Below are positions 186 through 31,478 of a stretch of 64,000 nt of DNA, in pieces. The DNA is from Elusimicrobiota bacterium (GTDB taxonomy: Bacteria; Elusimicrobiota; Elusimicrobia; UBA1565; UBA9628), in the NCBI GenBank assembly GCA_016209035.1, contig JACQWX010000058.1:1-64000 (forward strand), read 5' to 3'. Position 1 is the stretch's first letter, and every line of letters begins with the position of its first letter. Position numbers and translations under genes: made by a program. The notes under the pieces were generated by a model that worked only from the letters and a program-made list of their open reading frames with translations, searched no databases and was not told the origin of the DNA.

Positions 186-200
186 GTTCAATTAATGAAC
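180..200 (+). promoter_or_regulatory. promoter -10 box plus GTTCA-N5-TGAAC operator
   Basis: TAAAAT at 180-185 is a good -10 box and is followed directly by the inverted repeat GTTCAATTAATGAAC (186-200), which covers the ATG at 195. The same arrangement, -10 box then GTTCA-N5-TGAAC, occurs at 32715-32735 in front of the MarR-type regulator gene. Seen: the two sites match except at the second base of the -10 box and in the N5 spacer. Inferred: the regulator represses this promoter, and the mRNA is leaderless or nearly so. Confidence 0.6.
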
Positions 201-3023
201 AAATCCCGCCAGAAATCCTCCGGCCGCTCGACCGCCGCGCGCCCTTCCACCGCCGGACCCTCCCGCCCCGACGCCGTGGGGCGGTTCCTGGCCGTCTTCC
301 AGGACCGGGCGGACGAAACGTTCCTCCTCGACGCCCGGACCGGCCGGACCGGGACGTACGCCGAGACCGGGGCCGCGGCCCGCGCCGCGGCGCTCGAGCT
401 GCGTGCGCTCGGCGTGCGCAGGGGCGACCGCGTCGCGCTGTCTCTGGACAACTCCTTCTCGTTCGTCGAGCTCTTCCTCGGCGTCCTCTACGCCGGCGCG
501 GTCGCCGTGCCCCTTCACCCCACCTTCAGCCGCTTCAAGGCGGGCGACATCCTCAGGGCGTGCCGCGCCAAGGCGATTCTGGTCTCCCCGGACCTGATGT
601 GTCCCGCCATCGCCGAGTCCGGCACTCGGGTCGTCACCGTGCGTCCGGACGACAAGGGGACGGACTGGCCGACGAGAGCGGCGGGACCCCGCGGGGAAGC
701 CGGGCTCGTCCCGTGCGAAGGGGTGGGCGAGGACGACGAGCTGGCCATCGTCTTCACCTCCGGGACGACCTCCGAGCCGAAGGGCATCGGCCACACCTAC
801 CGGGATTTCGTCACCAACGCGGCGCTCCTCTCGGAGCGAGCGGGGCTCGGCCCCGACAGCCGTTTCCTGGGCCTCTTGCCGATGACCTACCTCGGGGGGC
901 ATTACAACCTGCTCCTCATCCCGTTCCTGTGCGGGAGCAGCCTCGTCGTGACCGACGTCTTCGACGCCAAGGGCGCGATCCGCTTCTGGCGGCCTGTCAT
1001 GGAGCACGGCGTCAACACCCTGTGGCTGGTGCCGACCATCATCTCCATCCTCTTGGAGTTCGACCGGGGGCCCGAGGGCCCGCGCTATTGCCGCAAGGTC
1101 CGGCCCACGGTCCTCTGCGGGACCGCCCCCCTGCCGGCCAAGCACAAATCCGCCTTCGAGGAGCGCTACGGGATCCCGATCCTCGAGAACTACGGCCTTT
1201 CCGAGACGCTCTTCCTGACCAGCGACGGCCCGGCCGAGCCCGGCCAGCGCACCGGCGTGGGGCCACTGCTCCCAGGCATCGCGGCAAGGATCGTCGACCG
1301 TCATGACGCGGACCTGTCCCCGGGGGCCGAGGGGGAGATACTCGCGCGCACCCCCTGCCTCGCCCGGGGCTACTACGACATCCGGAAAGGGGACCTTTCC
1401 CCTCTCTCGAAGGAGGATTGGTTCGCGACCGGCGACCTGGGGATCATGGACTGCCGGGGGACGCTGTCCATCACGGGCAGGAAGAAGGACCTCATCATCC
1501 GAGGGGGCATCAACATCAGCCCCTCCGCGATCGAGGAGGCTCTCTCCGCGCATCCGGCGGTGCTGCGCTGCGCGGTCGTCGGGATCCCCCATCGGCTCCT
1601 CGGAGAGGACGTGGCGGCCGTCCTGCGCCTACCACCGGACACGACCCTCGAGGAGGTCAAGCCGAAACTGCGCGAGGTCTGCGAGAAAGCCCTCCCGGCC
1701 ATCTACCGGCCCGCGGCCTACTTCGAGCTTCCGGAGCTCCCCCAGACGACGACGGGCAAGATTCAGAAGAACAAGATCCGGGCCTGGCTCGCGGAGAAGC
1801 TCCAGGAGGACGCGGCGGCCCGGGGGCGCCCAGGGGCGCCCCACCTCGACGCCCGCATCAACGCCGCCCGGTTCTTCGCCCCTTCCAAGGTCGTGGCGGA
1901 AAGCGTCCAAGCGATGTCCATCAAGTACAACAACCGGGTTTACGAGATGCAGCGCCGGGGCGCGGACATCACGGTGCTCTCCTTGGGCGAGGCTTTCTTC
2001 GACATCCCGCTCTACCCCTTCGACGATCTGCCGTTCCCCGCCGGCTACCACTACAGCCACTCGCGGGGCATCCCGGATCTCCGGGAGAAGCTGGCCGAGT
2101 ACTTCCGGGAGCAGTATGACGTCTCGTTCGACCCGGAACTGCAGATCATCATCACGGCGGGATCCAAGGCCGCCATCCACATGTCCCTGATGTCCCTCCT
2201 CAATCCCGGGGACGAGGTCCTCATCCACGAGCCGGCCTGGGTCAGCTACCCGGAGCAGGTCAAGCTCTGCTACGGCGTGCCGGTCATGATCCCGCACGAC
2301 AAGAACGTCTTCCACTTCGAGGAATACGTCACGAACCGCACCAAGGCCGTCATCATCAACAACCCCAACAACCCGTCCGGCAAGGTGTTCAACGTCGAGG
2401 AGATCTCGCACCTGTGCATGCTGGCGGAGAAGTACAAGCTCTTCATCCTCTCCGACGAGGCGTACAGCGACTTCCTGCTTGATGGCGAGCGCTTCGTTTC
2501 CGCCGGCAACATCGACAAGGGGCTGCAGCACACGGTCATCTGCAACTCCATGTCCAAGAACTACGGGATGTCCGGCTGGCGGGTCGGCTACTGCATCACC
2601 AATCCGGCGCTCACCGACCAGATCCTGAAGGTCAACCAGCACCTCCTGACCTGCCCGGCCACGATCCTCGAGCATTACCTCGCCAAACACTTCCACGACA
2701 TCATCCGCATCACCAAGCCCCAGATCGCCAAGGTCGTCCGGCAGAGGGCCGAGATCGCCAAGCGCCTCGACGCCATCGGGCTGCGCAGCCTCCCGGGTAC
2801 CGCCACCTTCTACTTCTTCGTCTCCATCGCCCCGTCCTCCCTGTCTTCCGAGGAGTTCTGCACCCGGCTCCTCGATCACGACCACGTCTGCGTCGTGCCC
2901 GGGCTGGGCTACGGCCGGTCCTGCGACAAGTTCGTGCGCGTCTCGGTCGGAACGGAGAGCCTCGAGCGCATCTACCGCGGCCTCGACAAGATCAAGGCGC
3001 TCATCGATGCGACCAAAGCCTGA
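195..3023 (+). CDS. adenylate-forming ligase fused to class I aminotransferase
   Basis: A 942-residue bifunctional protein. Residues about 20-530 are a class I adenylate-forming (acyl-AMP ligase) domain: P-loop TSGTTSEPKG at 188-197, ENYGLSET, the FATGDLG motif, TGRKKDLIIRGG near 427 and the C-terminal catalytic Lys at 522 (TTTGKIQKNK). Residues about 553-940 are a fold-type I PLP aminotransferase of the aspartate aminotransferase kind, with NNPNNPSG, SDEAYSDF and the PLP Lys at 788 (SMSKNYGMSGWR). Both halves keep their key residues. The substrate is unknown. The acyl carrier protein gene two genes downstream suggests that the ligase loads an acid onto a phosphopantetheine arm and that the aminotransferase makes or aminates it. 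ATG at 195 lies within the operator. The gene heads an operon whose next gene overlaps it by 17 bases. Confidence 0.88.
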   Translation: MNKSRQKSSGRSTAARPSTAGPSRPDAVGRFLAVFQDRADETFLLDARTGRTGTYAETGAAARAAALELRALGVRRGDRVALSLDNSFSFVELFLGVLYAGAVAVPLHPTFSRFKAGDILRACRAKAILVSPDLMCPAIAESGTRVVTVRPDDKGTDWPTRAAGPRGEAGLVPCEGVGEDDELAIVFTSGTTSEPKGIGHTYRDFVTNAALLSERAGLGPDSRFLGLLPMTYLGGHYNLLLIPFLCGSSLVVTDVFDAKGAIRFWRPVMEHGVNTLWLVPTIISILLEFDRGPEGPRYCRKVRPTVLCGTAPLPAKHKSAFEERYGIPILENYGLSETLFLTSDGPAEPGQRTGVGPLLPGIAARIVDRHDADLSPGAEGEILARTPCLARGYYDIRKGDLSPLSKEDWFATGDLGIMDCRGTLSITGRKKDLIIRGGINISPSAIEEALSAHPAVLRCAVVGIPHRLLGEDVAAVLRLPPDTTLEEVKPKLREVCEKALPAIYRPAAYFELPELPQTTTGKIQKNKIRAWLAEKLQEDAAARGRPGAPHLDARINAARFFAPSKVVAESVQAMSIKYNNRVYEMQRRGADITVLSLGEAFFDIPLYPFDDLPFPAGYHYSHSRGIPDLREKLAEYFREQYDVSFDPELQIIITAGSKAAIHMSLMSLLNPGDEVLIHEPAWVSYPEQVKLCYGVPVMIPHDKNVFHFEEYVTNRTKAVIINNPNNPSGKVFNVEEISHLCMLAEKYKLFILSDEAYSDFLLDGERFVSAGNIDKGLQHTVICNSMSKNYGMSGWRVGYCITNPALTDQILKVNQHLLTCPATILEHYLAKHFHDIIRITKPQIAKVVRQRAEIAKRLDAIGLRSLPGTATFYFFVSIAPSSLSSEEFCTRLLDHDHVCVVPGLGYGRSCDKFVRVSVGTESLERIYRGLDKIKALIDATKA

Positions 3024-4283: not shown

Positions 4284-4299
4284 GGCCCGGGACCTCCTG

Positions 4300-6228
4300 A
4301 TGCCGGCGCCAAACCCCAAGCCGCCGCCGTCCCACTACGACTCCGCTCAGCTGGAGGCGGCCCTGCGGTCCGTGGGGGTGCAGGAAGGCGACATCGTGTT
4401 CACTCATGTCGGGCTGGGGTTGTTGGGCTACCCCAACGAGGGCGCCACGGAGGAGGCCATGTACCGCGTCGCGCGCGACGCCTTCATGAGGGTGCTGGGC
4501 CCGCGGGGAACGCTGCTGGCCCCGGCCTACTCCTACAGCTTCTGCCGCGGGGAAGACTTCGACCCGGATGCGACGCCCTCGACCGCCGGTCCCTTCGCCG
4601 AGCGCTTTCGCAAGGAGAGCGGGGGCCTGCGCAGCCTCGATCCCATCTTCTCCGTCGGGGGCCTCGGCCCTGCCGCGGCGGAGCTCCTGCGCGACCTTCC
4701 CCGGGAATGCTTCGGTCCCGACAGCTTCTTCGACCGGCTCCTGCGGGCCGGCGGCAAGCTCTGCAACATCGGCGTGGGCTTCCGTTTCGCGACCTACGTC
4801 CACTTCGTCGAGCATCGGGAGGCCGTGCCGTACCGTTTCCGCAAGAGGTTCCCTGGCTGGGTCTGCGTGCGCGGCCGTCGCGATTACCAGGAATGGCTCT
4901 CCTTCGTGCGCGTCCAGGTGGACAACACCCTGCCGGACCTGCGCAGGCTCCAGACCGCCGCAGCCGCCTGCGGCGGCTTCGCGCGCGCGAGAGTCGGCAG
5001 GGGGGAGGTCACCTGCGTTCGCTGCGTCGACATGGACCGATTCTGCGCCGAGGGGATCCGCCGCGACCCCTGGTTCCTGGCCAGAGGCCCCGCCCTCGAC
5101 CTCGCGGCCGGCGATTGCGCGCGTTGCGGCCCGCAGGCTCCGGCGACCGCGATCCCGGTCACGACATCCGACTCGCGGCCCGAGCCGCTCCTGCGGTCGC
5201 TGGCCCCCCTGCCCGCGTATCCATTGTCTTCGGCCTGCGAGACGGCGGTTGCGCGCCTGGCCGCCGACCTGCCCGTCCGGACGCTGTCGTGCTTCACGGG
5301 AGCGAGGGCCGGGCGCACCGTCGTGCCTGAACGCTGGCTCTGCCGCGACGCATCTCTGGAAGAAGCCGGCGGAAGGACGATCCTGTCCCTGCGGGACCAT
5401 CCGCTCCTGGCGTCCTACTACAGCGCCCCATGCGACACGGAGCTGGAGTTGGCTGAGATCAGGCCCCGCCTGCGCACCCACGCGCTGTCGGAAGCCGTGC
5501 CCCTGGGCGCCGAGCCCGACCACCTCCATTGGTCTCTCTGCGTCAGCGCGGAGTTCCGCGAGGCCTTGAAGCCCGGCCGCTACCGGGCCCGCATCGACGC
5601 CTTCCACCTCTACGGGAGCATGACCGTGGCCGAGGTCCTGGCGGAAGGCGTCACCGAAGAGATCGTGGTCATCGCGGCCCACGCAGACCACCGCGGCATG
5701 GCCAATGATTCCCTCTCCGGCGCCGTCGCGGCAAGCTGCGCGATGCGCCGCCGGATCAAGGAAAGAGGCCGCCAGAGCGTGCTGTTGCTGCTGGCGCCGA
5801 AAACCTTCGGGCTGCCCTGGTATTTCCGGTCGCGCCCAGAGGTCGCGACGCGCGCGCGCGCCCTCATCCTGGTCGAGAGCATGGGCCTCGCCGAAGAGCC
5901 GGTCCTGCAGTTTCCCCGTCAGTCGGAAGGGCCCTGCCACCGGGCCGTCGTCACCGCCCTGAAGGAAGCGGCGCCGGCCTTGACTGAGGCGCGGGGAGAC
6001 AGCGCCTGGCTCTCCGCGGCCGACCTGGCCGACCTTCCGCATGGTCTGCCCGTCTACTGCCTCAACCGCTCTGCGCATCCTCTCGACAAGGAGGCGCCTT
6101 ACCCGGGATTCAGGACCAGTCTCGAAACCCCCGACTTCGTCTCGTTCCGCCATCTGGAAGACTCGGTGGACCTGCTCTCCCGGTTCCTGAGCCGCCTCGA
6201 CTCGTCGGTCGAGCGCCGGAGGAGCTGA
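4300..6228 (+). CDS. AAC(3)-family acyltransferase fused to DUF4910/M28-like domain
   Basis: A 642-residue protein. Residues about 20-270 match the aminoglycoside 3-N-acetyltransferase family (THVGLGLLGYP, LAPAYSYSFC, RSLDPIFSVGGLG, HFVEHREAVPYRF). In polysaccharide loci such proteins acylate amino sugars rather than antibiotics. Residues about 300-640 resemble the DUF4910 / M28-type aminopeptidase-like proteins found in glycan loci: AHADHRGMANDSLSG matches the H-x-x-H...NDNLSG metal-binding pattern. The fusion suggests that acyl transfer and a metal-dependent hydrolase-like step act on one substrate, plausibly the group carried by the carrier protein 17 bases upstream. The downstream gene begins at the last base of this stop codon (TGATG). 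Confidence 0.78.
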   Translation: MPAPNPKPPPSHYDSAQLEAALRSVGVQEGDIVFTHVGLGLLGYPNEGATEEAMYRVARDAFMRVLGPRGTLLAPAYSYSFCRGEDFDPDATPSTAGPFAERFRKESGGLRSLDPIFSVGGLGPAAAELLRDLPRECFGPDSFFDRLLRAGGKLCNIGVGFRFATYVHFVEHREAVPYRFRKRFPGWVCVRGRRDYQEWLSFVRVQVDNTLPDLRRLQTAAAACGGFARARVGRGEVTCVRCVDMDRFCAEGIRRDPWFLARGPALDLAAGDCARCGPQAPATAIPVTTSDSRPEPLLRSLAPLPAYPLSSACETAVARLAADLPVRTLSCFTGARAGRTVVPERWLCRDASLEEAGGRTILSLRDHPLLASYYSAPCDTELELAEIRPRLRTHALSEAVPLGAEPDHLHWSLCVSAEFREALKPGRYRARIDAFHLYGSMTVAEVLAEGVTEEIVVIAAHADHRGMANDSLSGAVAASCAMRRRIKERGRQSVLLLLAPKTFGLPWYFRSRPEVATRARALILVESMGLAEEPVLQFPRQSEGPCHRAVVTALKEAAPALTEARGDSAWLSAADLADLPHGLPVYCLNRSAHPLDKEAPYPGFRTSLETPDFVSFRHLEDSVDLLSRFLSRLDSSVERRRS

Positions 6229-8084
6229 TGGACCTCTACTTCGCCCGAGGCGAGCGCAGCGAGCCCCACGAGCCCAAGACGGCCGGGGGGCGCAAGAGGT
6301 CCCCAGGCGCGGCCGGCGCCCTGCACCTTTGCTTCGACTGGGAATCGTGCGCCGCCTTGCGAAGGCTTGGCCTGGATGCGTCCGCCTGGGAAGATCACAT
6401 CCCCGAAGACCAAGCATCGAGCGCTGCTCGGGAGACCGAAGCTCTCTGCGACGCCTGGTACCGTCTGGAGGACAGGGATTTCACCGTGTTCGAAGGCGTC
6501 TCGCTTGGCAAGGCCTACCGATTCATCATGCTCGGTTTGACGGTCCGGCCGGCGGCCAAGTTCCTGCTGGCCGCTGGAGCCGCCGTCGAGAGGCACGGAC
6601 CCCGGACGATCTGGTGCGAGACCTCGGTCCCCAAGCTCCATCAAGGCCTGCTCCGCTCTCTGGCCGCCCGCCGGCCCGGCTGCCGGATCGAGCTGGTCTC
6701 CCGTCGAGCCGCAAGCCGGGAGGTCTTGGCCTGGAAGCTCCCTGACATGAGGCTTAGCCGGCCCAAGAGGGCGGCCCTGCAGGCGCTCAACGTTCTGGCC
6801 CGCGCCCGATCCGTGACCCTCGGCCCGCGGCCGGTTCTCGTCGCGTCCTACTACTTCTCCTTGGATAACTTCATCCGCCTCCTCGCGGAGGACCCGGGCG
6901 CCTTCCGATGCCTTCTTGTTGACACCCCGAACAAGGAGAAGCTCGACCTTGTCGTTCGAGCCGGCGCCGAGCTCGCGCTGGACCATCGCCGCGAGCCGGC
7001 CTTCTCCCAGAGCCAGCGCGAATCCCTCGCCCGGATGCGGGAGGATTGGCGTCTGGCTCGGGAGGACCGTTCCTACCGGGACAAGCTGTCATTCCGGGGT
7101 ACGCCCTTGTGGCCATCGATCGAGGGGGTCCTAGAGGACTTCTTCCGGACCCAGGCCGAGCCGCTCGCCTGGGCCGCCGCGAGCCTCGACGAGCTCTGGC
7201 GGCGCGAGCGCCCTTCCGCAGCGCTCCTGCCCTACGATGAGATCCCCCTCCAGCACCTGGTCTCGGACATCGCCCGCAAACACGGCACGCCATCGGTCGT
7301 CGCCCTCCACGGCCTGCCGGACTACCTGCCGCCCCCGTTCGCTGGGGGGACGTCGCCGGTCTTCTCGGCATGGGGTCCGACCCTGGCCTCCCTGTGCGCC
7401 GCACCCGGCGCGTGGGGGGACAGGACCTGCCTCGCGATCGGGAACCCGCACTTCGATGGGCACTTGCGTCTCAGACGCCCCGCCCCGCCCAAGGAGGTCC
7501 GGACCATCCTCGTCCTGAGCTGCCCGCCCAGGAACTGGATCATGCTGGCCTCTGAGTCAGAACCGCAGACCTACGCAACCACCGTCTGCGAAGCTCTGAG
7601 AGCCGCGAACGCCCGGGTCGTCTTCAAGCTCCACCCCTGCGAATCGCTGTCCTACTATCTGCGCCTGCTCAAGGACTTCGACCGGATCGAGATCATCAAG
7701 GACAAACCCATCATGGAATGCATGCTGGAGGCGGATATGGTGATCGGGCCGTTCTCGACAGCGCTCATCGAGGCCATCATTCTCAATAAGCCCATCCTGC
7801 TCGCAAAACTCACCCGCACGCCGCTCTCCCCTCCCTTCGACGGTTCCTGGGGGATCAAGCCCCTGAGCTCCGGAGACGAGATTCACGCCGCGGTCACTCG
7901 GCTCCTCAGACATCCGGAGGAAGCCATCGCCGACGCATGCCGCCCCTATGCCCGCATCCTCGAGGAATTCGTGGGGCCCGCCGACGGTCGGGCATCAAGG
8001 AGACTGCTGACGGCGCTCCGGCGCCTGGCCTTGGACGGCTCAGCAGCCGTAGAGCCTGGCGATGCGGCTGCGGTTGATGCCTAG
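6228..8084 (+). CDS. GT-B-like surface carbohydrate transferase (paralogue A)
   Basis: A 618-residue protein resembling surface carbohydrate biosynthesis proteins with a GT-B / CDP-glycerol-transferase-like C-terminal half: VFKLHPCESLSYY near 465 and GPFSTALIEAIILNKPI near 507 form the donor-binding region. It shares the layout and several stretches (MDLYFA, RDFTVFEGVSLG, KLHP, PSTA-IEA) with the protein at 12839-14641, so the two are paralogues and may add related sugars. Residues about 7-15 (RGERSEPHE) match the translation of a common dispersed palindromic repeat and are absent from the paralogue. The 3' end overlaps the convergent methyltransferase gene by 45 bases. Confidence 0.7.
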   Translation: MDLYFARGERSEPHEPKTAGGRKRSPGAAGALHLCFDWESCAALRRLGLDASAWEDHIPEDQASSAARETEALCDAWYRLEDRDFTVFEGVSLGKAYRFIMLGLTVRPAAKFLLAAGAAVERHGPRTIWCETSVPKLHQGLLRSLAARRPGCRIELVSRRAASREVLAWKLPDMRLSRPKRAALQALNVLARARSVTLGPRPVLVASYYFSLDNFIRLLAEDPGAFRCLLVDTPNKEKLDLVVRAGAELALDHRREPAFSQSQRESLARMREDWRLAREDRSYRDKLSFRGTPLWPSIEGVLEDFFRTQAEPLAWAAASLDELWRRERPSAALLPYDEIPLQHLVSDIARKHGTPSVVALHGLPDYLPPPFAGGTSPVFSAWGPTLASLCAAPGAWGDRTCLAIGNPHFDGHLRLRRPAPPKEVRTILVLSCPPRNWIMLASESEPQTYATTVCEALRAANARVVFKLHPCESLSYYLRLLKDFDRIEIIKDKPIMECMLEADMVIGPFSTALIEAIILNKPILLAKLTRTPLSPPFDGSWGIKPLSSGDEIHAAVTRLLRHPEEAIADACRPYARILEEFVGPADGRASRRLLTALRRLALDGSAAVEPGDAAAVDA

Positions 8085-9291: not shown

Positions 9292-9319
9292 GCAAAGGGG
9301 GGATTTGATAGAATCTGCC

Positions 9320-10963
9320 ATGGCGGTCGACCTCTGCCTGGTCCTCCTGCCCTGCTGGGGCATCACCGACATCCCCTTGACCCTGTCCGCCCTCTCGAGC
9401 CGCCTCCGCGGCCATGGGGTCCCTCTGAAGGTGTTCGACTTCAATGTGGAGCTCTATCACCTCCTGTCCCAGGAGAGGCCTTGGTGGGACATCAGCCGGG
9501 GGCTGGACCTTTGGGAGCAGGAATCCTTCATCGACCGCTTCTGGAAAGAGAACCTCCCCGTCATCGAGACTCTCATCGACGACGCTTTGGAGCCCGAACC
9601 GCGGTGGGTCGGATTCTCCCTGTTCGTCTCGAACCGCCTGCTCACGGAGCGCTTCGCCCGTCGGCTCAAAGAGAAGGCCCCCTCGGCCAAGATCGTATTC
9701 GGCGGCCCCGAGGTGGGCGCCATCGAGGACCTCCAGGGGTACGCGGACCGGCATCCTTTCATCGACCATCTCGTGGTCGGGGAAGGTGAGGAGACGCTCC
9801 CGGCTCTTCTGCGCGGCCAGGAGACCCGGCGGATCGTGGCCAACATGGACGGGGTGCGCGATCTGGACAGCCTCCCGCTCCAGGACTTCTCGGACTACGA
9901 TTTCGCCCTCTACAAGGACGTGTACGCCTTCCCCACCTATTCCAGCCGGGGCTGCCCCAACGCGTGCATCTATTGCACCGAGCGGAACTTCGCCGGCCGC
10001 TTCCGCATCCGCTCGGCCGAGAGGCTCTTCGAGGACGTCCAGCGGCAGAAGACCCTCCGGCCCGACCTCAACATGTTCCGGCTCCACGAATCCACGAGCA
10101 ACGGAAGCGTCCCCCAGCTCGAGCGGTTCTGCGACCTCATGGCCGGCGCCTCCCTAGGCCTGCGCTGGGCCATCAACGGCGCGATCATGCGCAGGGAGAT
10201 GAACGACCGGATCTGCGCCAAGCTGGCCAGGGCCGGCTGCCGTTTCATCAACTACGGGCTGGAGACGCCGTCGCACAAGGTGCTTGCGGCTGTGGGCAAG
10301 CGACTGTCGGCAGGAACGAACTTCGACCGCGTCGTTCGCTCCACTCACGACGCGGGAATTGAGGTCGCGCTCAACGTCATGTTCGGCCTGCCGGGCGAGA
10401 CTGAAGCCGACTTCCAGGAACAGCTCGACTTCCTCCGGCGCAACCATCGGCACATCTCGACGATCGCGCCGAGCCTCTGGTTCTGCTATTTCCCCAAGGG
10501 GTCCGAGGGCGCTCGCCATCCGGGAAAGCACGGCATCGACCTGGAGATGGGCCCGTTGTATTGGCGGAGCCCCCATGGGACGAACGACTACCTGGTCCGG
10601 ATGGAGCGGTTCGTGCGCTACACCGACCTGATGCAGGAACTCGGGGTCAAAAGCCTCTTCGGCTTCCCGGCCCTGCCCAACCGCCGTGAATTGGCCGCGG
10701 CCTACTGCCATGAGCTGGTCCGCCGCGGCCATCTGTCCGCCGAAGAGGCGCGAGGGCGCCTTGGTGAGATGCGTCTCCTGGACATGAAGCCCGCTCGAGG
10801 TGAGAACATGCTGAGATCACTGTTGCGGAAGATCATCTACGCGGTGGCTCCGGCCGCCGTCCACAACGCCGTCTCGGAGATCGCCCGGGCCAGGCTCCTC
10901 GAAAGGAGGCTCAACAAGCTCCTCAAGGAGCGCGGGGCGCGGCAGCGATACAGCGATGGCTGA
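9320..10963 (+). CDS. B12-binding-domain radical SAM protein
   Basis: About 547 residues. The N-terminal part (FSLFVSNRLLTERF, FGGPEVGAI, DHLVVGEGEETL) is a cobalamin-binding Rossmann domain. The radical SAM core follows, with its 4Fe-4S cysteines in CPNACIYC (C212, C216, C219). Members of this family carry out methylations and ring rearrangements at unactivated carbons. Here a sugar or lipid methylation is plausible, but the substrate cannot be read from the sequence. I prefer the ATG at 9320 because the protein then starts MAVDLCLVLLPCWG, as the family does; a TTG at 9305 is also in frame. The last eight bases overlap the next gene (ATGGCTGA). Confidence 0.82.
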   Translation: MAVDLCLVLLPCWGITDIPLTLSALSSRLRGHGVPLKVFDFNVELYHLLSQERPWWDISRGLDLWEQESFIDRFWKENLPVIETLIDDALEPEPRWVGFSLFVSNRLLTERFARRLKEKAPSAKIVFGGPEVGAIEDLQGYADRHPFIDHLVVGEGEETLPALLRGQETRRIVANMDGVRDLDSLPLQDFSDYDFALYKDVYAFPTYSSRGCPNACIYCTERNFAGRFRIRSAERLFEDVQRQKTLRPDLNMFRLHESTSNGSVPQLERFCDLMAGASLGLRWAINGAIMRREMNDRICAKLARAGCRFINYGLETPSHKVLAAVGKRLSAGTNFDRVVRSTHDAGIEVALNVMFGLPGETEADFQEQLDFLRRNHRHISTIAPSLWFCYFPKGSEGARHPGKHGIDLEMGPLYWRSPHGTNDYLVRMERFVRYTDLMQELGVKSLFGFPALPNRRELAAAYCHELVRRGHLSAEEARGRLGEMRLLDMKPARGENMLRSLLRKIIYAVAPAAVHNAVSEIARARLLERRLNKLLKERGARQRYSDG

Positions 10964-12836
10964 ACGCGCGGTCGTCGCCTATTCCCATCAGGCCGACCCT
11001 CGATGTCTTCCAGTGTTCCCGTCGGAGGCCTGCCCCGGCGTCACCTTCAGCTTCGAAGAGACCGTCGCGTTCGGCCAGCGCTACAACGCTCTTTACGAAC
11101 GCCTCCATGACGCGGTCTGCCCGCGCTGGGCGCGGCGCCTCGGCCTGCCGCCCGACATCGCCCGGATCTTCGTCCGGCCGACCATCGTCGTCTTGACCCA
11201 TCTCTTCTGCGACCGATTCATCAGGCTGGGCCGTCTTTTGCGCCGGCGCAACGGGGAGGATCTTTTCGTCGGCGACGCCGCTCCCCTGAAAATGCCGGAC
11301 GGTCTCCATCAGGTGCTGTCCCGGGCCGCCTACTCAGCCGAGACCAATCAATCCGTTCTGTGCTGGCTGGCCCCCCTCTGGGGCCTTCCCGTCCGGCCTT
11401 GGCCCTTGGACGATCCGTTTCTCAAAGCCCATGTCACTCCTCCCGGCTTCATCAATTACAATTACTCCCTCTTGGACGCGCTGCAGAAAGCGCGCAAAGG
11501 AGTCCGCCGGCTGGCGTTGAAAGCGGCCAGGATGGCCCGACCTTCGACGCACGACCTCATTCCGGCGCTCTCCATGGCCTATGACTCCTCCCCTCTCGAG
11601 GCGGCCGGGCTGATCGGCCGCAAAGGGCTCGTCGTGCTCGACCTCAAGCCTTTCCGCGGCGGAGACCCGAGGGCCGACTCTTCGCTCAGGGAGGACATTA
11701 TTGACGGAGCCGCAGGCCTCTTCGCGCCGGCACTGCGGAACTTCCTGGCGGACATTGGCGCCAAATCCGCCGGCGCGGTCCGCGGGGCGCCCGAGTCGTT
11801 CGCCCGGTTCCTGAACCTCATGACTCCATCCAACATGCTCGAAGGAGCGCCTGCCAGGCTCGCCCAGGTGAAGGAACTCCTCGCGCCGTTCCAGGGCCGC
11901 CCCGTCGTGATGCAGGAACTCGGGCACCCGGACTCCTGCTACATGGCCGCGGCCGCGCGCTCCCTGGGGATGGAAGTCGTCGGCTGCCAGCACGGCGGTG
12001 GGCCGGGCAACCTCGACCACATGCGCAGCGTCGCCGAACTCGAATACCCCCTCTGCGACCGCTTCATCACCAGGGGCTGGCGGCGGTTCCTCACCCCTAA
12101 CCCGAACCCGGAGATGCGGGCGATCCCGATGCCGAGCCCCTGGTTGAGCGAGCGGGCCAAGATGTGGCGCCGCCGACTGCGGTGGGCCCGATGGCTCAGG
12201 CGCAAGCCCGCCTTCGACCTCCTGTTGATGTCGGACAAAGTACTGCCCTTCCCGCGGCCCGGCATGGGGATGGACGCCCTGTCGTCCGACCAGCTGCTCG
12301 GCCAGGCCGCGCTGCTCCGATCCCTGGTCGAGGAGGCGTCGCGCCGCGGCATCAGCATCCTGCACAAGCCCTACAACAGGGAGATCGCGCTCCTGCTTGG
12401 CCGAACGTTCGCCGCGCTCGAGGAGCTGGGCGGAAGCCGCTACAGGTTCGACGATGGCGTGAACAAGGGCCTCTCGCCCCAGCTCGTGTCTTCGTGCGGT
12501 GTGGTGGTATGGGACAAGCCGTCCAGCGGGTTCTCGGAATGCGTGATTGCCGGCATCCCGACCATGGTGCTGTGGCCGCGCTTCTCAAGCAGCGAACCCC
12601 CCTGGGCGGAGGGGGTCTTCCGAGAGCTCGAAGCTCGGGGGGTCGTGCATCGTCGGGCGGAAAGCCTCTGCGAGGAATGCCTCAGATTCCGGGAGGCGCC
12701 GCGGTCCTGGATGAAGGACCCCGGCCGCGTCCGGGCGATCAAGCGCTTCTCTCGCCGCTACGCCTGGGCACGACCCGACTGGCCGCGGTACTGGAGGAGG
12801 CTGCTGGATTCCTTCCGCGCACCGCCAGACGGATAA
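10956..12836 (+). CDS. LIC12162-like surface antigen transferase
   Basis: A 626-residue protein resembling the LIC12162 family of putative transferases from Leptospira O-antigen loci. The diagnostic stretch is GCQHGGGPGNLDH near residue 343, followed by a C-terminal GT-B-like half (ILHKPYNRE, CGVVVWDKPSSGFSECVIAGIPTMVLWP). It is predicted to be cytoplasmic and to add a sugar or other group during repeat-unit assembly. It overlaps the radical SAM gene by eight bases and ends three bases before the next start, so the three genes form one unit. Confidence 0.68.
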   Translation: MAERAVVAYSHQADPRCLPVFPSEACPGVTFSFEETVAFGQRYNALYERLHDAVCPRWARRLGLPPDIARIFVRPTIVVLTHLFCDRFIRLGRLLRRRNGEDLFVGDAAPLKMPDGLHQVLSRAAYSAETNQSVLCWLAPLWGLPVRPWPLDDPFLKAHVTPPGFINYNYSLLDALQKARKGVRRLALKAARMARPSTHDLIPALSMAYDSSPLEAAGLIGRKGLVVLDLKPFRGGDPRADSSLREDIIDGAAGLFAPALRNFLADIGAKSAGAVRGAPESFARFLNLMTPSNMLEGAPARLAQVKELLAPFQGRPVVMQELGHPDSCYMAAAARSLGMEVVGCQHGGGPGNLDHMRSVAELEYPLCDRFITRGWRRFLTPNPNPEMRAIPMPSPWLSERAKMWRRRLRWARWLRRKPAFDLLLMSDKVLPFPRPGMGMDALSSDQLLGQAALLRSLVEEASRRGISILHKPYNREIALLLGRTFAALEELGGSRYRFDDGVNKGLSPQLVSSCGVVVWDKPSSGFSECVIAGIPTMVLWPRFSSSEPPWAEGVFRELEARGVVHRRAESLCEECLRFREAPRSWMKDPGRVRAIKRFSRRYAWARPDWPRYWRRLLDSFRAPPDG

Positions 12837-16442: not shown

Positions 16443-16449
16443 CCAGCCG

Positions 16450-18374: not shown

Positions 18375-18376
18375 GT

Positions 18377-18405
18377 CACTTCCCTCCCCCGCGGGGAGGG
18401 AAGTG
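18377..18405. repeat. 13-bp stem palindrome between genes
   Basis: CACTTCCCTCCCC, loop CGC, then the exact reverse complement. It fills most of the 52-base gap between the methyltransferase start and the amidotransferase stop. It has the same stem length and C-rich/NGC/G-rich plan as the palindrome at 24323-24351. No T-run follows, so it is more likely a dispersed repeat than a terminator. Confidence 0.55.
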
Positions 18406-18426
18406 GAAGTGGGGGCCGATGCCGCC

Positions 18427-19554
18427 TCATACAGTCTTCCTCCATGTCCAATCCGGAATCAAGAACCCGGGAATCGTCCATCTTCCCTTCACCCTCTTCC
18501 AGATCTCCCTGTTGCGGAATCTCTCGCACGCTCCCGAGAACTCCCTCTCCGAGATGCCGGTGAAGGAGCAGAACCTGCGGATGTCTCCGTGCGGGGTCTC
18601 GTCGCCCTTCTTGCGCAGAGCCGCGATCGCTTCATCGCGGGTCATGCGGCCGTTGCGGATCTCGAGGGAGAGGTTGTCGAAGCTGCGCGTGAACCCGAAT
18701 TTGTGCCACTTGAGATGATGGTGCACGGAGATGAAGTCGTCGTCGATGTCGGCGAAGTCGTAGACGCCGGTCTTGGGTCCTGTTCCCGCCCTGAAGCCGT
18801 GCCTGCGGGCGACCTGGCAGGTCTTCAACGGGTCCCAGGGGAAGTAGTAGCCCAGGAAGACCGCCCGGACCCCCGCCCTTGAGAGCTGCGCCGGCGTCGG
18901 GCCGAAGTAGGGCGCGAGGTCCTTGGCCGTCAGGCCTCCCTTGCCGACCCAGTCCCGCGCCTTCGTGCCGTGCGTGACGCCGTACTTCCGGATCCACCGC
19001 TCATCGAGGGCGAAGCCCCGGGATTCCTCGCGGGTCCCCCCGTACTCGAAGGCCGAGTTCTCGCCCCAGACCACGAGCGGGACGCGGAGCGCGGCCGCGA
19101 TCCGCAAGGGGACGTTGAAGATCGCCATGTGCATGGGGATGGCGGAGCTTCCGCACCTCAAGAAGACCTCACGGGCGAACCGGCGCTCCACCTCCAGGCT
19201 GATCGAGTAGTCGACGTGGTCCACCCCGAGCCGGACCAGATTCTCCAGGTTGGCCCTGCCGATCTCGGTGCGAGCCGGCGGCTTCCAGGTCACGGCCAGG
19301 ACCCTTAAGTCCTGCTCAAGGCAGGCAACCACCTGCCAATGGCTGTCCTTGCCTCCGCTCACCGGCACGAGGCAGTCATATCCCCGGGAGCGCGTCTTGG
19401 CTCGGGCGACGACTTTCCGGAAAGCCCGCTTGCGGGCTTCCCAATCGATGGTCGCGCGGGAGGCGTGCATCGCGCAAGCATTGCATATTCCACCGGGACC
19501 AATCGTGAGATTGGGCCTGGTGTCAGGCAAGACGCATCGAGCGCAGTATCTCAC
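18427..19554 (-). CDS. N-acetyl sugar amidotransferase (WbpG family), copy 1
   Basis: A 375-residue protein with Cys pairs at the N-terminus (YCARCVLPDTRP; CNACAMH) and the ATP-pyrophosphatase loop PVSGGKDSHW near residue 66, followed by family blocks VVWGENSAFEYGG and FLGYYFPWDP. WbpG-type enzymes use ammonia from a HisH-HisF pair to turn an N-acetyl group into an acetamidino group. No hisH or hisF lies beside this copy, so it may share the pair at 33316-34747 or use the neighbouring glutaminase-containing AsnB. GTG at 19554 was chosen because GGAGGA lies just upstream and the family begins RYCxxCVLP. It shares GTGA with the asparagine synthase stop. Confidence 0.82.
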   Translation of the reverse strand: MRYCARCVLPDTRPNLTIGPGGICNACAMHASRATIDWEARKRAFRKVVARAKTRSRGYDCLVPVSGGKDSHWQVVACLEQDLRVLAVTWKPPARTEIGRANLENLVRLGVDHVDYSISLEVERRFAREVFLRCGSSAIPMHMAIFNVPLRIAAALRVPLVVWGENSAFEYGGTREESRGFALDERWIRKYGVTHGTKARDWVGKGGLTAKDLAPYFGPTPAQLSRAGVRAVFLGYYFPWDPLKTCQVARRHGFRAGTGPKTGVYDFADIDDDFISVHHHLKWHKFGFTRSFDNLSLEIRNGRMTRDEAIAALRKKGDETPHGDIRRFCSFTGISEREFSGACERFRNREIWKRVKGRWTIPGFLIPDWTWRKTV

Positions 19555-21380
19555 GAGAATTCCTCCAGGAACATCTTGGCGCACAGAAAATTGAAAAGGA
19601 ATTTGCTTTCGGAATTCGGCAAATCCGGCCGATCCAACAACGCCGCGATTCTCTCGCGCTTGACGTGCTCGAATATTGGGCTCTCCTTGAGGACCTCGGC
19701 GCGCACCGCCGGGTCCTTGACATCCAGGAAGGAGAAGATGGGGGCGTTGAACCCCACCTTTCGCCTGCTCTCCAGGACCGCCGCGGGCACGATGCCCTTC
19801 ATGGCGTCTCGCAGGACCGCCTTGGCCCTGCCGTCCTGGATGAGATGCCTCGACGGGATCGTGTTGCAGAAGTCGAACAGCGGCCGGTCCAGGAACGGGG
19901 AGCGGTTCTCGATCGAGTAATACATGGAGTTCAGGTCGTCCTCGTGCAGGATGACCGGGACCGCCTCGTGGAAGAGCTCGTTGAGCATGCGGTTTCGCAG
20001 GAGGCTGTCCGTAAACCGGGTCTCGGAGAAAGGCTCCGACCACGGAGAACGCAGATAGGACGCGAATCCCGCGGCGTCGAGGTAGATATGTTCTCTCATC
20101 CCTGGATTCTTGATGAAGGCCGCGGGATCGCGGAGATAGGGGTTGCGCACCAACGGCTTGATATGACGCTCCCACGCCGCCCGGGAGGCGGCGTGGAGAG
20201 TCGGCTCGCCGCGGACCTCGTAGAGATAGGCCAGGTGATGGTCGTAGTACCCGGTGAAGAGCTCGTCCGCCGCCGAGCCCGAGACCGAGATGCGGTAGCC
20301 GTGGGACGCCACCGCCTCCATCAGGAGCCAATGCGCGTAGTAGGTGATGGTGAAGACCGGGGCGTCGTGGCAGCGGACCAGCTCCCTCAATCTGGGGAGG
20401 AACTCCTTGGTCTGGACCGGGATCGGCGTGTGCCTGATGCCGAGCTCCCGGACGGAGGCCTCCACCAGGTCGCTCTCCTCGTAGCGGGCGTCGGTGTTGA
20501 CGATGGTGAACCCGTGCACGTCGTACTTGAAGACCCTCTTGGCGGTCGCGATGAGCGAGTTGGAGTCCACCCCCCCGCTCATGCAGAAAGCGAGCGGCAA
20601 GTCCGCGCGCAGGCGCAGCTCCACGGCCTTGATGATCCTCTCCCGGGCGCCCGCCACCGCGGCCTCGCAGGTCATGCTGTCCTCCGGCCGATAGGCCGGA
20701 GTCCAATACCGCCATCGCGTCTCCGAGCCCTCCGGCCCGATCCGCAGACAGGTGGCCGCCGGCAGTTCCTCCAATCCCTCGTAGAAGGTATGTCTCTCCT
20801 TGTAGAGGGCCTTGTAGCCGTTGACCAGGTATCGGCAGAGCTGGTCGATGTTCGGCTTGAGCTTCTGGCCCAAAAGCGCCCCAAGGAACTTCACCTCGGA
20901 CGCGAAGTAGAGGCCGGTCTCGTCACGATGGAGATAGAGGGGCTTCTCGCCGAACCGGTCGCGGCAGAGGTGGAGACTCCCGTCCGCCTCGTCATAGACC
21001 GCGAAGGCCCACATGCCCTCGCACCGGTCGAGGACCCCAGGTCCTTCCAGGCCCCAGGCCTTCAAGAAGACCTCCGTGTCGGATGTCGAGGTGAAGGACC
21101 CCGCCCGCTCCCTGATGGACTCCTTCACCTCGACATAATTGTAGAGCTCGCCGTTCAGGATCATCCAGCGCGAGCCCTCCCGGAACGGCTGGTTGGCGCG
21201 CTCGGCGAGGTCGATGATCTTGAGCCGGCTGTGCAGAAAGTAGACGTGCCTGCCCGAGGGACCGGCCCAATGCCGGGACGCGCGGTGGTCCGGCCCCCGT
21301 CTGTTCATCAGGGAAAGGGCCGCGTCGAGCCTTTCGGGCTCGATGACGCGAGAGCCGAAATACCCCGCTATGCCGCACAC
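19551..21380 (-). CDS. asnB: asparagine synthase (glutamine-hydrolysing), complete
   Basis: A 609-residue class II amidotransferase. The GTG start at 21380 gives (M)CGIAGYFG, so the catalytic Cys follows the initiator as required. NRRGPDHR, NGELYNYVEVK and CRDRFGEKPLY are the glutaminase blocks. SGGVDSNSL near 267 is the PP-loop, and SGSAADELFTGYYDHH belongs to the synthetase domain. In glycan loci AsnB-type proteins often amidate a sugar carboxylate or supply ammonia. It differs from the Cys-less homologue at 14583-16442 in the same operon. It overlaps the acetyltransferase gene by 13 bases and shares GTGA with wbpG copy 1. Confidence 0.88.
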   Translation of the reverse strand: MCGIAGYFGSRVIEPERLDAALSLMNRRGPDHRASRHWAGPSGRHVYFLHSRLKIIDLAERANQPFREGSRWMILNGELYNYVEVKESIRERAGSFTSTSDTEVFLKAWGLEGPGVLDRCEGMWAFAVYDEADGSLHLCRDRFGEKPLYLHRDETGLYFASEVKFLGALLGQKLKPNIDQLCRYLVNGYKALYKERHTFYEGLEELPAATCLRIGPEGSETRWRYWTPAYRPEDSMTCEAAVAGARERIIKAVELRLRADLPLAFCMSGGVDSNSLIATAKRVFKYDVHGFTIVNTDARYEESDLVEASVRELGIRHTPIPVQTKEFLPRLRELVRCHDAPVFTITYYAHWLLMEAVASHGYRISVSGSAADELFTGYYDHHLAYLYEVRGEPTLHAASRAAWERHIKPLVRNPYLRDPAAFIKNPGMREHIYLDAAGFASYLRSPWSEPFSETRFTDSLLRNRMLNELFHEAVPVILHEDDLNSMYYSIENRSPFLDRPLFDFCNTIPSRHLIQDGRAKAVLRDAMKGIVPAAVLESRRKVGFNAPIFSFLDVKDPAVRAEVLKESPIFEHVKRERIAALLDRPDLPNSESKFLFNFLCAKMFLEEFS

Positions 21381-22111
21381 AGGTGCTTGTGAAGGACGTA
21401 CGCCGTCTTGCAGACCTGGAACCCGCAGCTCTCGTAGAGCCTCATGGAGGGGACGTTCGCGGCCTGCGTGCCGACTAGGAGGTCGTCGCACTTCCCGCGG
21501 AACTCGTTGACAAAGAAGCGCGTCAGCGACTTTCCGATGCCCTTGCCCTGCGCGGATGACGCCACCCCGATGAGGTCGATGACGCCGACCTTCCTCCCTG
21601 CCTCCTCCGCCGCGATGACCGCGAGGAACCCCGCCGGCTTGCCGTCGGCCTTGGCGACGTAGAGGCCGTTCCCCCGCTTGCCGCGGACGTAGTTTTCGAT
21701 CCACTCCGCCTTGATGCGATGGGCGAGTTCGGGGGAAACCAGGGGGTCGAGGTGGAACCGCGAGTACTTGAAGCATGAGCCCGCGATGGCGACCGCCCCC
21801 CTAGCTAGGTCGCCGTCGCACTCGACTTTCGCCACCTCGCAACCCGAAGGCGGCAGGGCCGGGAGCTTGACCGACCGGTTGAAGGTGACATTGACATCCA
21901 CGGTGAAGAAACCCGCCTCGTTGAGGCGGCACACCGCGCCCACGGCCTGCGTCGGGACCTTGGCATAGTAGAAAGCCTTCTTGAGCCCGCCCCGGTGCTC
22001 CACCAGGGCCTTCAGATCCCCTGCGGAGAAAGCCTCCCACGGCGCTGACAGCCGAAACGCGCCGTGTCCGAAGAAGCCCGAGAGCCAGCTGTCTTCCGCG
22101 ATCTCGAGCAC
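21368..22111 (-). CDS. GNAT-family N-acetyltransferase (WecD-like)
   Basis: A 247-residue protein whose C-terminal GNAT fold is clear: VIDLIGVASSAQGKGIGKSL binds acetyl-CoA and NVPSMRLYESCGF is the last motif. The long N-terminal half with SRFHLDPLVSPELAHRIKAEW resembles WecD, which acetylates the 4-amino group of dTDP-4-amino-4,6-dideoxygalactose. Placement directly after an aminotransferase and an epimerase gene supports N-acetylation of an amino sugar nucleotide. It could also provide the missing LegH-type step, though that enzyme is usually of another family. Confidence 0.72.
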   Translation of the reverse strand: MLEIAEDSWLSGFFGHGAFRLSAPWEAFSAGDLKALVEHRGGLKKAFYYAKVPTQAVGAVCRLNEAGFFTVDVNVTFNRSVKLPALPPSGCEVAKVECDGDLARGAVAIAGSCFKYSRFHLDPLVSPELAHRIKAEWIENYVRGKRGNGLYVAKADGKPAGFLAVIAAEEAGRKVGVIDLIGVASSAQGKGIGKSLTRFFVNEFRGKCDDLLVGTQAANVPSMRLYESCGFQVCKTAYVLHKHLCAA

Positions 22112-22114
22112 CGC

Positions 22115-23170
22115 CTAATTCCCCCCTTTCCCCGGCATTGCGCCTGGAACGGCGCCGCCGCTAGCGAAACCCCGGTACCACTCGATGTACCGGGCGAAGC
22201 CCTTTTCGATGGGGAACTGGGGGTTGTAGCCGAGGAGCCTGCGCGCCTTCTCCACGGAGAGCGTTCCGCGCAACGGCATCAGCTCGTCGCGCTTCACGAA
22301 TTCGACGCCGATGCCGGGGAAGCTCCGGCGGACGATGTCCGCCAGCTCCTTGATGGGCCTTGAGTCGCCGTAGGTCATGTTGAATATCTGGTTGTGGGCC
22401 GCCGGGTTCTCCATGGCCAGGCACACGCCCTCCACCAGGTCGTCGATGTAGGTGAAGTCGAGCTTCTCCGAGCCGTCGCCGTCGATGCGGAGTTTTCCCC
22501 CCTTCAGGGCGGTCTCGATGTACACCTGTCCGACGCGGCGGCTCACGCACCGCGGGCCGTAGAGCGCAGATGGCCTGAGGATGGTGTAGGTCAGGCCGAA
22601 GACCTGCTGGTAGGCGATGACGATCCTTTCCCCCGCCACCTTGAGCGCCCCGTAGATGCCCATGGGATTGAGCGGGTGCTCCTCGGCCACCTCGGGCGTC
22701 AGGAAGTTGCCGTAGGCCATGCTGGAGGAGAAGAAGATGAACTGCTCGACGCCCGTGCCCCGGGCGTAGTCCAGCGCGTTCTCGAGGGTCCTGAGGCTGT
22801 GGTCGAAGGTGCTGAAGGGGTCTTTGTTGGACTTGCCCGCGTGCGAGACCGCGGCCAGGTGCACGATCACCTGCGGCTTGATCTGACCCAGGATCCGGGA
22901 GATGGCGTGGTAATCCCTTGCGTCCACGGGATGGAGCGGGACCCCGGACTTGCGGATCAGGTCGAGCCGTTCGTTGAGCATGCGCAGATAGAGGTCGCGG
23001 TCGACCGAGCCCTGGAACTCGGAGGCGAAGGAGAGCAGGTTGTTGACCTGGAGGCTGTCGATGACGTCCACGACCGCGCCCCGGGCGATGAGCGCCAGGG
23101 CCAGGTGGTGGCCGATGAAGCCCGCCCCTCCGATCAAGGCGACCTTGCAGCCCTTGAGATCCCTGTTCAT
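22115..23170 (-). CDS. NAD-dependent nucleotide-sugar epimerase/dehydratase
   Basis: A 351-residue extended short-chain dehydrogenase. KVALIGGAGFIGHHLALAL is the NAD-binding start, HLAAVSHAG the active-site loop, SSSMAYG the Ser region, and YGALKVAGE the catalytic Tyr-x-x-x-Lys. It probably epimerises or dehydrates an NDP-hexose. ATGA overlap with the aminotransferase gene and a three-base gap to the acetyltransferase gene suggest a three-step route to an N-acetylated amino sugar. Confidence 0.82.
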   Translation of the reverse strand: MNRDLKGCKVALIGGAGFIGHHLALALIARGAVVDVIDSLQVNNLLSFASEFQGSVDRDLYLRMLNERLDLIRKSGVPLHPVDARDYHAISRILGQIKPQVIVHLAAVSHAGKSNKDPFSTFDHSLRTLENALDYARGTGVEQFIFFSSSMAYGNFLTPEVAEEHPLNPMGIYGALKVAGERIVIAYQQVFGLTYTILRPSALYGPRCVSRRVGQVYIETALKGGKLRIDGDGSEKLDFTYIDDLVEGVCLAMENPAAHNQIFNMTYGDSRPIKELADIVRRSFPGIGVEFVKRDELMPLRGTLSVEKARRLLGYNPQFPIEKGFARYIEWYRGFASGGAVPGAMPGKGGN

Positions 23171-24375
23171 GAAGCCTCCTTGACCGCGGCCTTGAATTCG
23201 TCCACGATGCGCGGCATGTCGCCCGTCTCGATGTGAGGGCCGACCGGCAGCGCGATGCCGCAGTCGCTGATCTTCTCGGCATGCTGGAACGACCCCGGTG
23301 AATAGCCGTACTTCTTCCGGTAGTACGCCATGCGCGGGACGGGCTGGGGATAGTAGATGCTGGTGCCCACGCCGCGGGCGTTCAAGGCGGCCACGATCTC
23401 CCCCCGCCGCTTGGACAGGGGGCCTTCGAGCACGACTTCCAGGCAGTAGTGGCTGTTCTTGGCCCGGGCGTCGTGGCTGTCGAGCACCCGCACGTCCTTG
23501 ACCTTGGAGAGGCCCGCCTTCAAGACCGCGAAGTTCTTGCGCCGGCGGTCGAGGTTCTCAGTCACTCGGCCCAACTGGGCCCGGCCCAGCGCGGCCTGGA
23601 GCTCGCTCAGCCGATAGTTCAATCCCAGGCCCGGCACGTCGTACATGCCGGGGACCGACCTCTCCGCGTGGGTGCGGTCCACCCCGAACGCCCGCAGCCT
23701 GGAGACGGCCTGCGCGACGCCCTCGTGGCGGCTGACGAACATGCCGCCCTCGCCGGTGGTGATGTGCTTGACCGGGTAGAAGGAGAAGCACCCGGCGTCG
23801 CCGAAGAGGCCGGCGTGGACGCCGTCGAACCTCGAGCCCACGGCCAGGGCGCAGTCCTCCACGACCCAGAGCCGTCTCCTCCGGGCCACCTCCATGATCG
23901 CGGGCATGTCGCACGGGATGCCCAGGAAATGCACGACCGAGATCGCCTTGGTCTTGGAGGTGAGAGCGGCCTCGACCCTCTTCGCCGTCAGGTTGCCGGT
24001 CTTGGGGTCGCAGTCCGCGAACACGGGCCGAGCTCGTACCCACTCGACCGCGTGGGCGGTGGCCGTGTGGGTCTGGGCCGGGACGATCACCTCGTCGCCG
24101 GGCCCCAGGCCGAAGTGGAGGTAAGCCAGGTGCAGGGCGGCCATGCAGGAGCTGGTGGAGACGCAGTGGGCCGCCCCTCCAGACGCGGGGACGCCCAGGA
24201 AGGCCGCGAACTCGGCCTCGAAGGCCTTGCACTGCGGGCCGTGGGTCAGGATGTGGCCTTTCAGGACCCCGAGCACGGCATCGCGCTCAACATCGGTGAT
24301 CCAGGGCCGGGCGAATGGGATTTGCTCGCCCCCCCTGCGGGGGGGCGAGCAGCGGGGGGGCACTTGCTGTTTCAT
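23167..24375 (-). CDS. DegT/DnrJ/EryC1 sugar aminotransferase
   Basis: A 402-residue PLP enzyme of the nucleotide-sugar aminotransferase family. QTHTATAHAVEWVRARPVF is followed by VEDCALAVGSRFDG and the PLP Lys203 in FYPVKHITTGEGG; YRLSELQAALGRAQL follows. It converts a keto-sugar nucleotide to an amino sugar, probably on the product of the epimerase encoded next to it. Residues about 9-17 come from a perfect palindrome (24323-24351) and look like an insertion; the conserved protein begins around IPFARPWIT. The start overlaps the oxidoreductase stop (ATGA). Confidence 0.85.
   Translation of the reverse strand: MKQQVPPRCSPPRRGGEQIPFARPWITDVERDAVLGVLKGHILTHGPQCKAFEAEFAAFLGVPASGGAAHCVSTSSCMAALHLAYLHFGLGPGDEVIVPAQTHTATAHAVEWVRARPVFADCDPKTGNLTAKRVEAALTSKTKAISVVHFLGIPCDMPAIMEVARRRRLWVVEDCALAVGSRFDGVHAGLFGDAGCFSFYPVKHITTGEGGMFVSRHEGVAQAVSRLRAFGVDRTHAERSVPGMYDVPGLGLNYRLSELQAALGRAQLGRVTENLDRRRKNFAVLKAGLSKVKDVRVLDSHDARAKNSHYCLEVVLEGPLSKRRGEIVAALNARGVGTSIYYPQPVPRMAYYRKKYGYSPGSFQHAEKISDCGIALPVGPHIETGDMPRIVDEFKAAVKEAS
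24323..24351. repeat. 13-bp stem palindrome inside the DegT gene
   Basis: TGCTCGCCCCCCC, loop TGC, then the exact reverse complement, read in frame as the N-terminal leader of the aminotransferase. It has the same design as 18377-18405. Confidence 0.6.
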
Positions 24376-25370: not shown

Positions 25371-25420
25371 GGAATCCGCACGGGCCCGACGAGCGGATGA
25401 TGCGCGCGGATTCCTTGCCA
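25365..25420. repeat. 15-bp inverted repeat with 26-base loop between two genes
   Basis: TGGCAAGGAATCCGC (25365-25379) and its exact reverse complement (25406-25420) enclose 26 bases. It begins directly at the stop of the cytidylyltransferase gene and ends at the start of the oxidoreductase gene, so it fills the gap. It could attenuate transcription or hide the start codon of the downstream gene. Confidence 0.55.
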
Positions 25421-26140: not shown

Positions 26141-26147
26141 CCCGCAT

Positions 26148-26176
26148 ATTCTAATAAACCCGCCGCGGGTCCGCAA
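26148..26176 (-). promoter_or_regulatory. promoter of the 26140-14583 operon
   Basis: On the minus strand TTGCGG (26171-26176), a 17-base spacer and TAGAAT (26148-26153). The -10 is five of six to consensus; the -35 is weak. It lies in the only sizeable gap between two minus-strand gene runs. Confidence 0.4.
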
Positions 26177-26189
26177 TTGAAAGGGCCCC

Positions 26190-26927: not shown

Positions 26928-26928
26928 G

Positions 26929-28332: not shown

Positions 28333-28385
28333 TCGGACGTCATCGAGCGGGGGGCGCGCGGAGGATGTCCGTGACGCCTCGGTCG

Positions 28386-31458: not shown

Positions 31459-31478
31459 GCGGTCCTCCCCCTGAACCA

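Follow-up and report, generated by a model that had tools for sequence, protein, structure and literature searches.

The window, the whole stretch of 64,000 nucleotides analyzed here, forms the start of contig C27 of an Elusimicrobiota draft genome (4.23 Mb, 136 contigs, 93% complete). Close to its first base lies a gene in which a predicted acyl-AMP ligase is joined to a PLP aminotransferase, the first gene of a tightly packed operon whose members overlap or nearly touch from 195 to 8084 (Table 1). An in-frame stop is found just 5' of the ATG and the frame is open only back to 183. Since the window begins at the contig start, genes upstream of the fusion are missing.

The ligase half matches the Pfam models AMP-binding (residues 38–394, 227 bits) and AMP-binding_C (446–522, 52 bits), both above cut-off, and the C-terminal half matches Aminotran_1_2 (620–921, 200 bits), with homology to standalone aminotransferases extending over about residues 560–942. 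The initial annotation had described a single-chain fusion in which both halves keep their catalytic lysine, and this description holds: two apparently intact catalytic halves share one frame, K522 lies within TTTGKIQK, the context of an A10 lysine, and K788 within NSMSKNYGMS, the context of a PLP lysine. The further statement that no carrier domain intervenes is borne out by a Pfam scan of the entire chain, linker included, which detected no PP-binding (phosphopantetheine) domain; the carrier is a separate acyl carrier protein (ACP) gene 1 kb, or two genes, downstream of the fusion. An AlphaFold model of the fusion, built from a 5-row alignment, has a mean pLDDT of 47 and a pTM of 0.32.

Among the downstream genes, the M29-like protein scores 23.4 of the 27 bits set as gathering score for PF02073 and thus falls short of M29 membership. 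It shares with its counterpart at a second fusion locus (see below) the residues E208, E270, H296, H314, and D316, which we take to be metal ligands. The ACP is matched by the DltC model below cut-off. A B12-binding radical SAM protein (9305–10963), which stays below the cut-off of every NCBIfam model it matches, is encoded amid the glycan genes. Genes of amino-sugar or nonulosonic acid (NulO) type follow at a distance of at least 15 kb, on the strand opposite to the operon, and the NulO pathway they would form is incomplete at strict cut-offs. One of the WbuX amidotransferases has an asparagine-synthase-like protein on either side, both recognized by eye from translations (14583–21776, minus strand), a grouping that suggests amidated or amidino sugars.

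Table 1. Features of the fusion gene, its operon, and the sugar genes of the window.
Feature	Position	Strand	Remarks
Fusion ORF, acyl-AMP ligase and PLP class I/II aminotransferase	195..3023	+	942 aa, ATG start
Acyl-AMP ligase half, residues 38–522	306..1760	+	PF00501 and PF13193; K522 at nt 1758–1760
Linker, ~30 residues, about 535–562	1797..1880	+	A/R/P/G-rich; limits approximate
Aminotransferase half, residues 620–921	2052..2957	+	PF00155; K788 at nt 2556–2558
M29-like metalloenzyme, 339 aa	3007..4026	+	PF02073 below cut-off; overlaps fusion end
Free-standing acyl carrier protein, 86 aa	4023..4283	+	DSV phosphopantetheine site
AAC(3)-type N-acyltransferase (PF02522) fused to DUF4910/DUF2172 metallopeptidase-like domain	4300..6228	+	
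Surface-carbohydrate transferase-like protein	6228..8084	+	TIGR04396, below cut-off
LIC12162-family transferase-like protein	10956..12836	+	Below cut-off
Amino-sugar/nonulosonic-acid type genes, same locus	18427..32681	-	
WbuX, first copy	18430–19599	-	Above cut-off
WecD-like acyltransferase	21371–22111	-	Below cut-off
PseC-like aminotransferase	23170–24375	-	Below cut-off
NeuC	28389–29720	-	Above cut-off
NeuB-like	30406–31506	-	Just below cut-off (361.4 of 399.65 bits)
WbuX, second copy	31482–32681	-	Above cut-off

Recurrence of the fusion and relatives of its ligase half

The 942-aa reading frame and its fusion are real. A second fusion with the same domain order was identified in a genome of another family within the same taxonomic order (G052, contig C95, JACQPK010000012.1), where an open frame of 913 aa without stops is 54% identical to the window's protein over residues 33–940. 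Both catalytic lysines are identical in the two proteins, and the linker is the part least conserved between them, as expected of a tether. The initial annotation had named a sequencing error joining two genes, visible as a stop or start near residue 545, as the finding that would undo the fusion. The gene does lie 195 bases from a contig end of a draft genome, a position where such an artefact could be suspected; however, no stop occurs near residue 545, a coding pattern in G+C by codon position (300-nt windows) runs unbroken through the joint, and the same fusion was assembled separately in a genome of another family, which in practice rules out an error of sequencing or assembly and makes an artefact extremely improbable.

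The architecture is rare, as first supposed. A search for relatives in 97 genomes returned a single full-length match besides the query, in G052, and among 340 genomes of the phylum (E<=1e-80) four had matches, the fusion being present in 2/340 (the window's own genome, G000, and G052), while G034 and G048 carry ligases only. The ligase half had no match among plasmids at E<=1e-60, and the aminotransferase half, compared with a phage collection, matched 36 records, the ten listed being ordinary aminotransferases at 28–34% identity. Word searches of the open-access literature retrieved no direct account of the fusion or the module, which may have been published elsewhere. Within the data searched, the architecture appears to be new, and the kind of module it belongs to appears to be that of known surface-glycan acylation.

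The second fusion locus contains an upstream methyltransferase, an M29-like protein on the opposite strand (43% identical to that of the window), an AAC(3), an ACP, and a full DUF4910-DUF2172-HTH_47 protein, which matches the structure of CA_C2195 (3k9t) over its length with 390 bits. A probable two-domain VOC protein is also seen there by eye. The set of fusion, M29-like protein, ACP, AAC(3), and DUF4910 is thus common to both loci in differing order and strand, with AAC(3) and DUF4910 forming one gene in the window and two genes on opposite strands at the second locus (L039/L069). This recurrence of the same functions in rearranged form, the loci differing by one gene fusion, strongly suggests that these genes work together.

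Within the phylum, the ligase half is most closely related to four standalone ligases, 38–43% identical in tblastn (contig C115 of the window's own genome, G034, G048, and contig C53 of G052, the last cut by a contig end). When a tree is rooted on five further ligases of the phylum, these and the two fused ligases form one clade (100/100), within which the fused ones pair (87/89). The modules around the sister ligases hold some of ACP, AAC(3), DUF4910, methyltransferase, and cyclase. The C115 module (L065:273-7226) comprises a ligase, AAC(3), an ACP-like stretch, a methyltransferase, a cyclase, DUF4910, and an HMGL-like aldolase, and was found to contain neither an aminotransferase of the fusion's clade nor an M29-like gene. 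This paralogous module presumably handles another acyl group, and the C115 module and the fusion operon may represent one delivery system fed by different acids.

The aminotransferase clade and its gene neighborhoods

Standalone aminotransferases with 52–62% identity to the fused one occur in a MAG, an Obscuribacterales MAG, Gemmatimonadota, and on two Streptomyces megaplasmids, a tally that is incomplete because the contigs were scanned with two peptide patterns only. A seven-member profile (E<=1e-120) detected the clade in 5/346 genomes of Gemmatimonadota, 1/339 of the Obscuribacterales phylum, and 1/9 of a third phylum, each count including the genome that seeded it. Both halves of the fusion have their own separate relatives. 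The initial annotation had asked whether the halves occur as separate neighbors in related genomes: they do occur separately, but they were not found adjacent; no ligase of the fusion's clade was found at standalone aminotransferase loci (0/12) and no aminotransferase of the clade at standalone ligase loci (0/4, one of them ending at a contig edge). In aminotransferase trees with and without outgroup, the window's half joins the standalone protein of locus L040 (83/95), and a tree constrained to unite the two fused halves also passes the AU test (p 0.209). A single fusion event likely accounts for both loci, with loss of the ligase part in the L040 lineage being possible.

Across the clade, the aminotransferase is commonly accompanied by an enzyme that activates acids. 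Such an enzyme lies within 8 kb at 12 of 14 loci, both fusions included. These loci do not all count as independent samples, since three Gemmatimonadota genomes contribute two apiece, and their flanks vary (11–31 kb, the window apart). An AMP-binding protein is found within 8 kb at 8/14 loci. At 3/14, one of which also has the AMP-binding protein, an ATP-grasp protein of L-amino-acid-ligase type (PF18603) is no more than 4.6 kb away, and the two fusions make up the remainder of the 12; L041 and L058 show no activating enzyme nearby. Chance proximity should be uncommon, since the fusion has 13 matches in its own genome, 8 of them to the ligase half, equivalent to eight AMP-binding places in 4.23 Mb, a rough yardstick that applies to this genome only.

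Further neighbors hint at an ornithine-like diamino acid as the product, a hint drawn from relatives and not from the window itself. On both Streptomyces plasmids, the aminotransferase is preceded by genes for glutamate 5-kinase and glutamate-5-semialdehyde dehydrogenase, each scoring above cut-off, and may make an ornithine-like building block. An OTC-like gene (237.6 of 306 bits) adjoins the aminotransferase at one Gemmatimonadota locus, and a YgeY-like hydrolase, below cut-off, is present at two. The proB-proA, OTC-like, and L-amino-acid ligase neighbors thereby suggest a diamino-acid product for what is so far an unnamed clade. The proB-proA-aminotransferase arrangement of the megaplasmids (L043:12420-16146 and L044:12593-16925, one with an additional proC-like gene) lies near NRPS genes. 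In two distant phyla (L040:8562-12327 and L042:5402-11914), the aminotransferase is found with an L-amino-acid-ligase-type ATP-grasp protein, an amidohydrolase, and a related methyltransferase. At L057:9241-10794 and L059:5285-6853, from two Gemmatimonadota, the gene beside the aminotransferase encodes a protein of 517–522 aa that has no Pfam match and is 61% identical between the two.

Predicted activities and a proposed route to surface glycans

The C-terminal half shows the features of class I/II aminotransferases (PLP lysine, NPxNP(T/S)G, SDEAY, GWR..Y, and a carboxylate arginine). R915 is invariant in seven aligned sequences, standalone ones among them, and by analogy with aspartate aminotransferases would be the arginine that binds the α-carboxylate. 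Like the archaeal-type aspartate/aromatic aminotransferases 1dju and 1gd9, the half belongs by sequence to this fold family and has the PLP lysine and the α-carboxylate arginine; unlike them, it falls in a distinct clade and under every NCBIfam cut-off shown. The best of the 24 families listed is an archaeal aspartate aminotransferase (255.9 of 550 bits). Among the best NCBIfam matches is also GntC, a PLP cyclodehydratase (222 bits, cut-off 415); no listed model reaches its cut-off, and either assignment is tentative. Together with the proB-proA, OTC-like, and YgeY-like neighbors of the relatives, the GntC match would fit a PLP half whose chemistry is not transamination but, for example, a cyclodehydration or an elimination acting on a diamino or guanidino acid. 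This is unlikely, however, as the aspartate aminotransferase model scores higher and the best sequence matches to structures are aminotransferases.

The N-terminal half carries the features of ANL ligases in alignment (P-loop TSGTT..PKG, motifs A5, A7, and A8, and the A10 lysine), its closest matches being malonyl-CoA and fatty-acyl ligases. In NRPS adenylation domains, Asp235 (GrsA numbering) binds the α-amino group of the substrate. This position is Asp in all seven NRPS A domains aligned, Met or Ser in the four sister ligases, and Leu in both fusions, so that activation of α-amino acids in the NRPS manner is not supported. The ligase may use another carboxylate, such as that of a side chain, it may see the amino acid differently, or the amine may come later. 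The combination of an ANL-type ligase and a small carrier protein encoded apart from it resembles the loading pairs of NRPS A domains with their carriers and of DltA with DltC; the present ligase differs from the aligned NRPS domains in lacking Asp235, and is further set apart by its proximity to acyl-CoA ligases and by its fused aminotransferase.

The gene content of the operon suggests that an acyl group is added to a surface glycan. A role of DUF4910 proteins in modified surface carbohydrates has been proposed from gene neighborhoods, and the domain occurs in many bacterial clades with its chemistry unknown, according to the parts of the source used here (PMC4000134). These place CA_C2195 of Clostridium acetobutylicum within a locus (CA_C2186-2199) that encodes a NeuB-like synthase, an ATP-grasp aminoacyl ligase, N-acetyltransferases, and an ACP (PMC4000134). 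In Campylobacter jejuni, the DUF4910 family member Cj1295 is described as necessary for flagellin to bear pseudaminic acid in its di-O-methylglyceroyl form, in the passages drawn upon (PMC3068675). Both the window and the second fusion locus likewise combine DUF4910, an ACP, an N-acyltransferase, and sugar genes, the NulO part of the window's module consisting of model hits, some below cut-off. As far as the sources were covered, DUF4910, ACP, N-acyltransferase, methyltransferase, and NulO-type genes are shared with the C. acetobutylicum and C. jejuni loci (PMC4000134; PMC3068675), whereas C. acetobutylicum has an ATP-grasp ligase (PMC4000134) and the present loci have an AMP ligase fused to an aminotransferase and, in addition, an M29-like enzyme. 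The window further differs from both modules in joining AAC(3) and DUF4910 within a single gene. Group II flagellar glycosylation islands of Aeromonas hold an ACP, an AMP-dependent synthetase, and acyl-handling genes together with pseudaminic acid genes, and are thus similar in placing an AMP-type synthetase and an ACP near NulO genes; no fused aminotransferase is reported in the sections of that source used here (PMC7874193).

On this basis, we propose with a probability of about 0.5 that the fusion is a bifunctional enzyme which produces an acyl group of the amino-acid type and activates it for the ACP and, from there, for an amino sugar of a surface glycan. The C-terminal aminotransferase would convert an oxo acid or semialdehyde into an amino acid with glutamate or a similar donor, whereupon the N-terminal ligase would adenylate a carboxylate of this amino acid and load it onto the ACP. 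An amino sugar, plausibly a nonulosonic acid or a precursor, would then receive the ACP-bound acyl group on its free amino group through the AAC(3)-type domain. The DUF4910 domain, perhaps with the M29-like enzyme, could trim or swap an amide on the sugar or on the acyl donor, and transferases of the LIC12162 and TIGR04396 types would assemble the glycan. Counting against this reading are the lack of Asp235 in the ligase and the gaps in the NulO pathway, whose genes are moreover remote from the operon. We infer every catalytic step, the order of the steps, the acceptor, and any benefit of the fusion from gene context; the channeling of a keto or amino acid that the initial annotation suggested is a conjecture of the same kind.

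The order in which the amino acid is made first and then activated is favored because the standalone relatives of the aminotransferase pair with amino-acid-activating enzymes, and its odds against all alternatives together are about even. Aminotransferase domains of mycosubtilin-type synthases, which are of class III type, aminate a carrier-bound group. A comparable reversed order, in which the ligase would load an oxo or other acid onto the ACP for amination in place, is in keeping with the missing Asp235, the nearness of the ligase to malonyl-CoA and fatty-acyl ligases, and the free ACP of the operon. It is nevertheless rather unlikely given that the present aminotransferase is of the class I/II aspartate type and that the invariant R915 fits small free amino acids, a fit that the amino donor alone could explain. 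That the module instead makes a small NRPS-like secondary metabolite and not a component of a glycan could be argued from Streptomyces and Gemmatimonadota, where standalone members have NRPS-type adenylation domains close by; yet the scan of eight window proteins turned up no NRPS gene, and DUF4910, AAC(3), and surface-carbohydrate transferases adjoin both fusions, which leaves little likelihood for such a product.

If the amino-acid-first reading is correct, the synthesis and the activation of an amino acid are joined in one chain for surface-glycan decoration, and the fusion provides a handle on the cargo of ACP/AAC(3)/DUF4910 modules. A more specific version is offered tentatively, as a possibility with a limited chance of being right in full. 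In this version, the protein would act as a single-chain "aminoacyl primer" whose aminotransferase makes a non-proteinogenic, perhaps diamino, acid that passes via its own ligase and the ACP to the decoration of a nonulosonic-acid-type sugar, the unnamed aminotransferase clade being one that repeatedly pairs with AMP ligases, L-amino-acid ligases, and NRPS.
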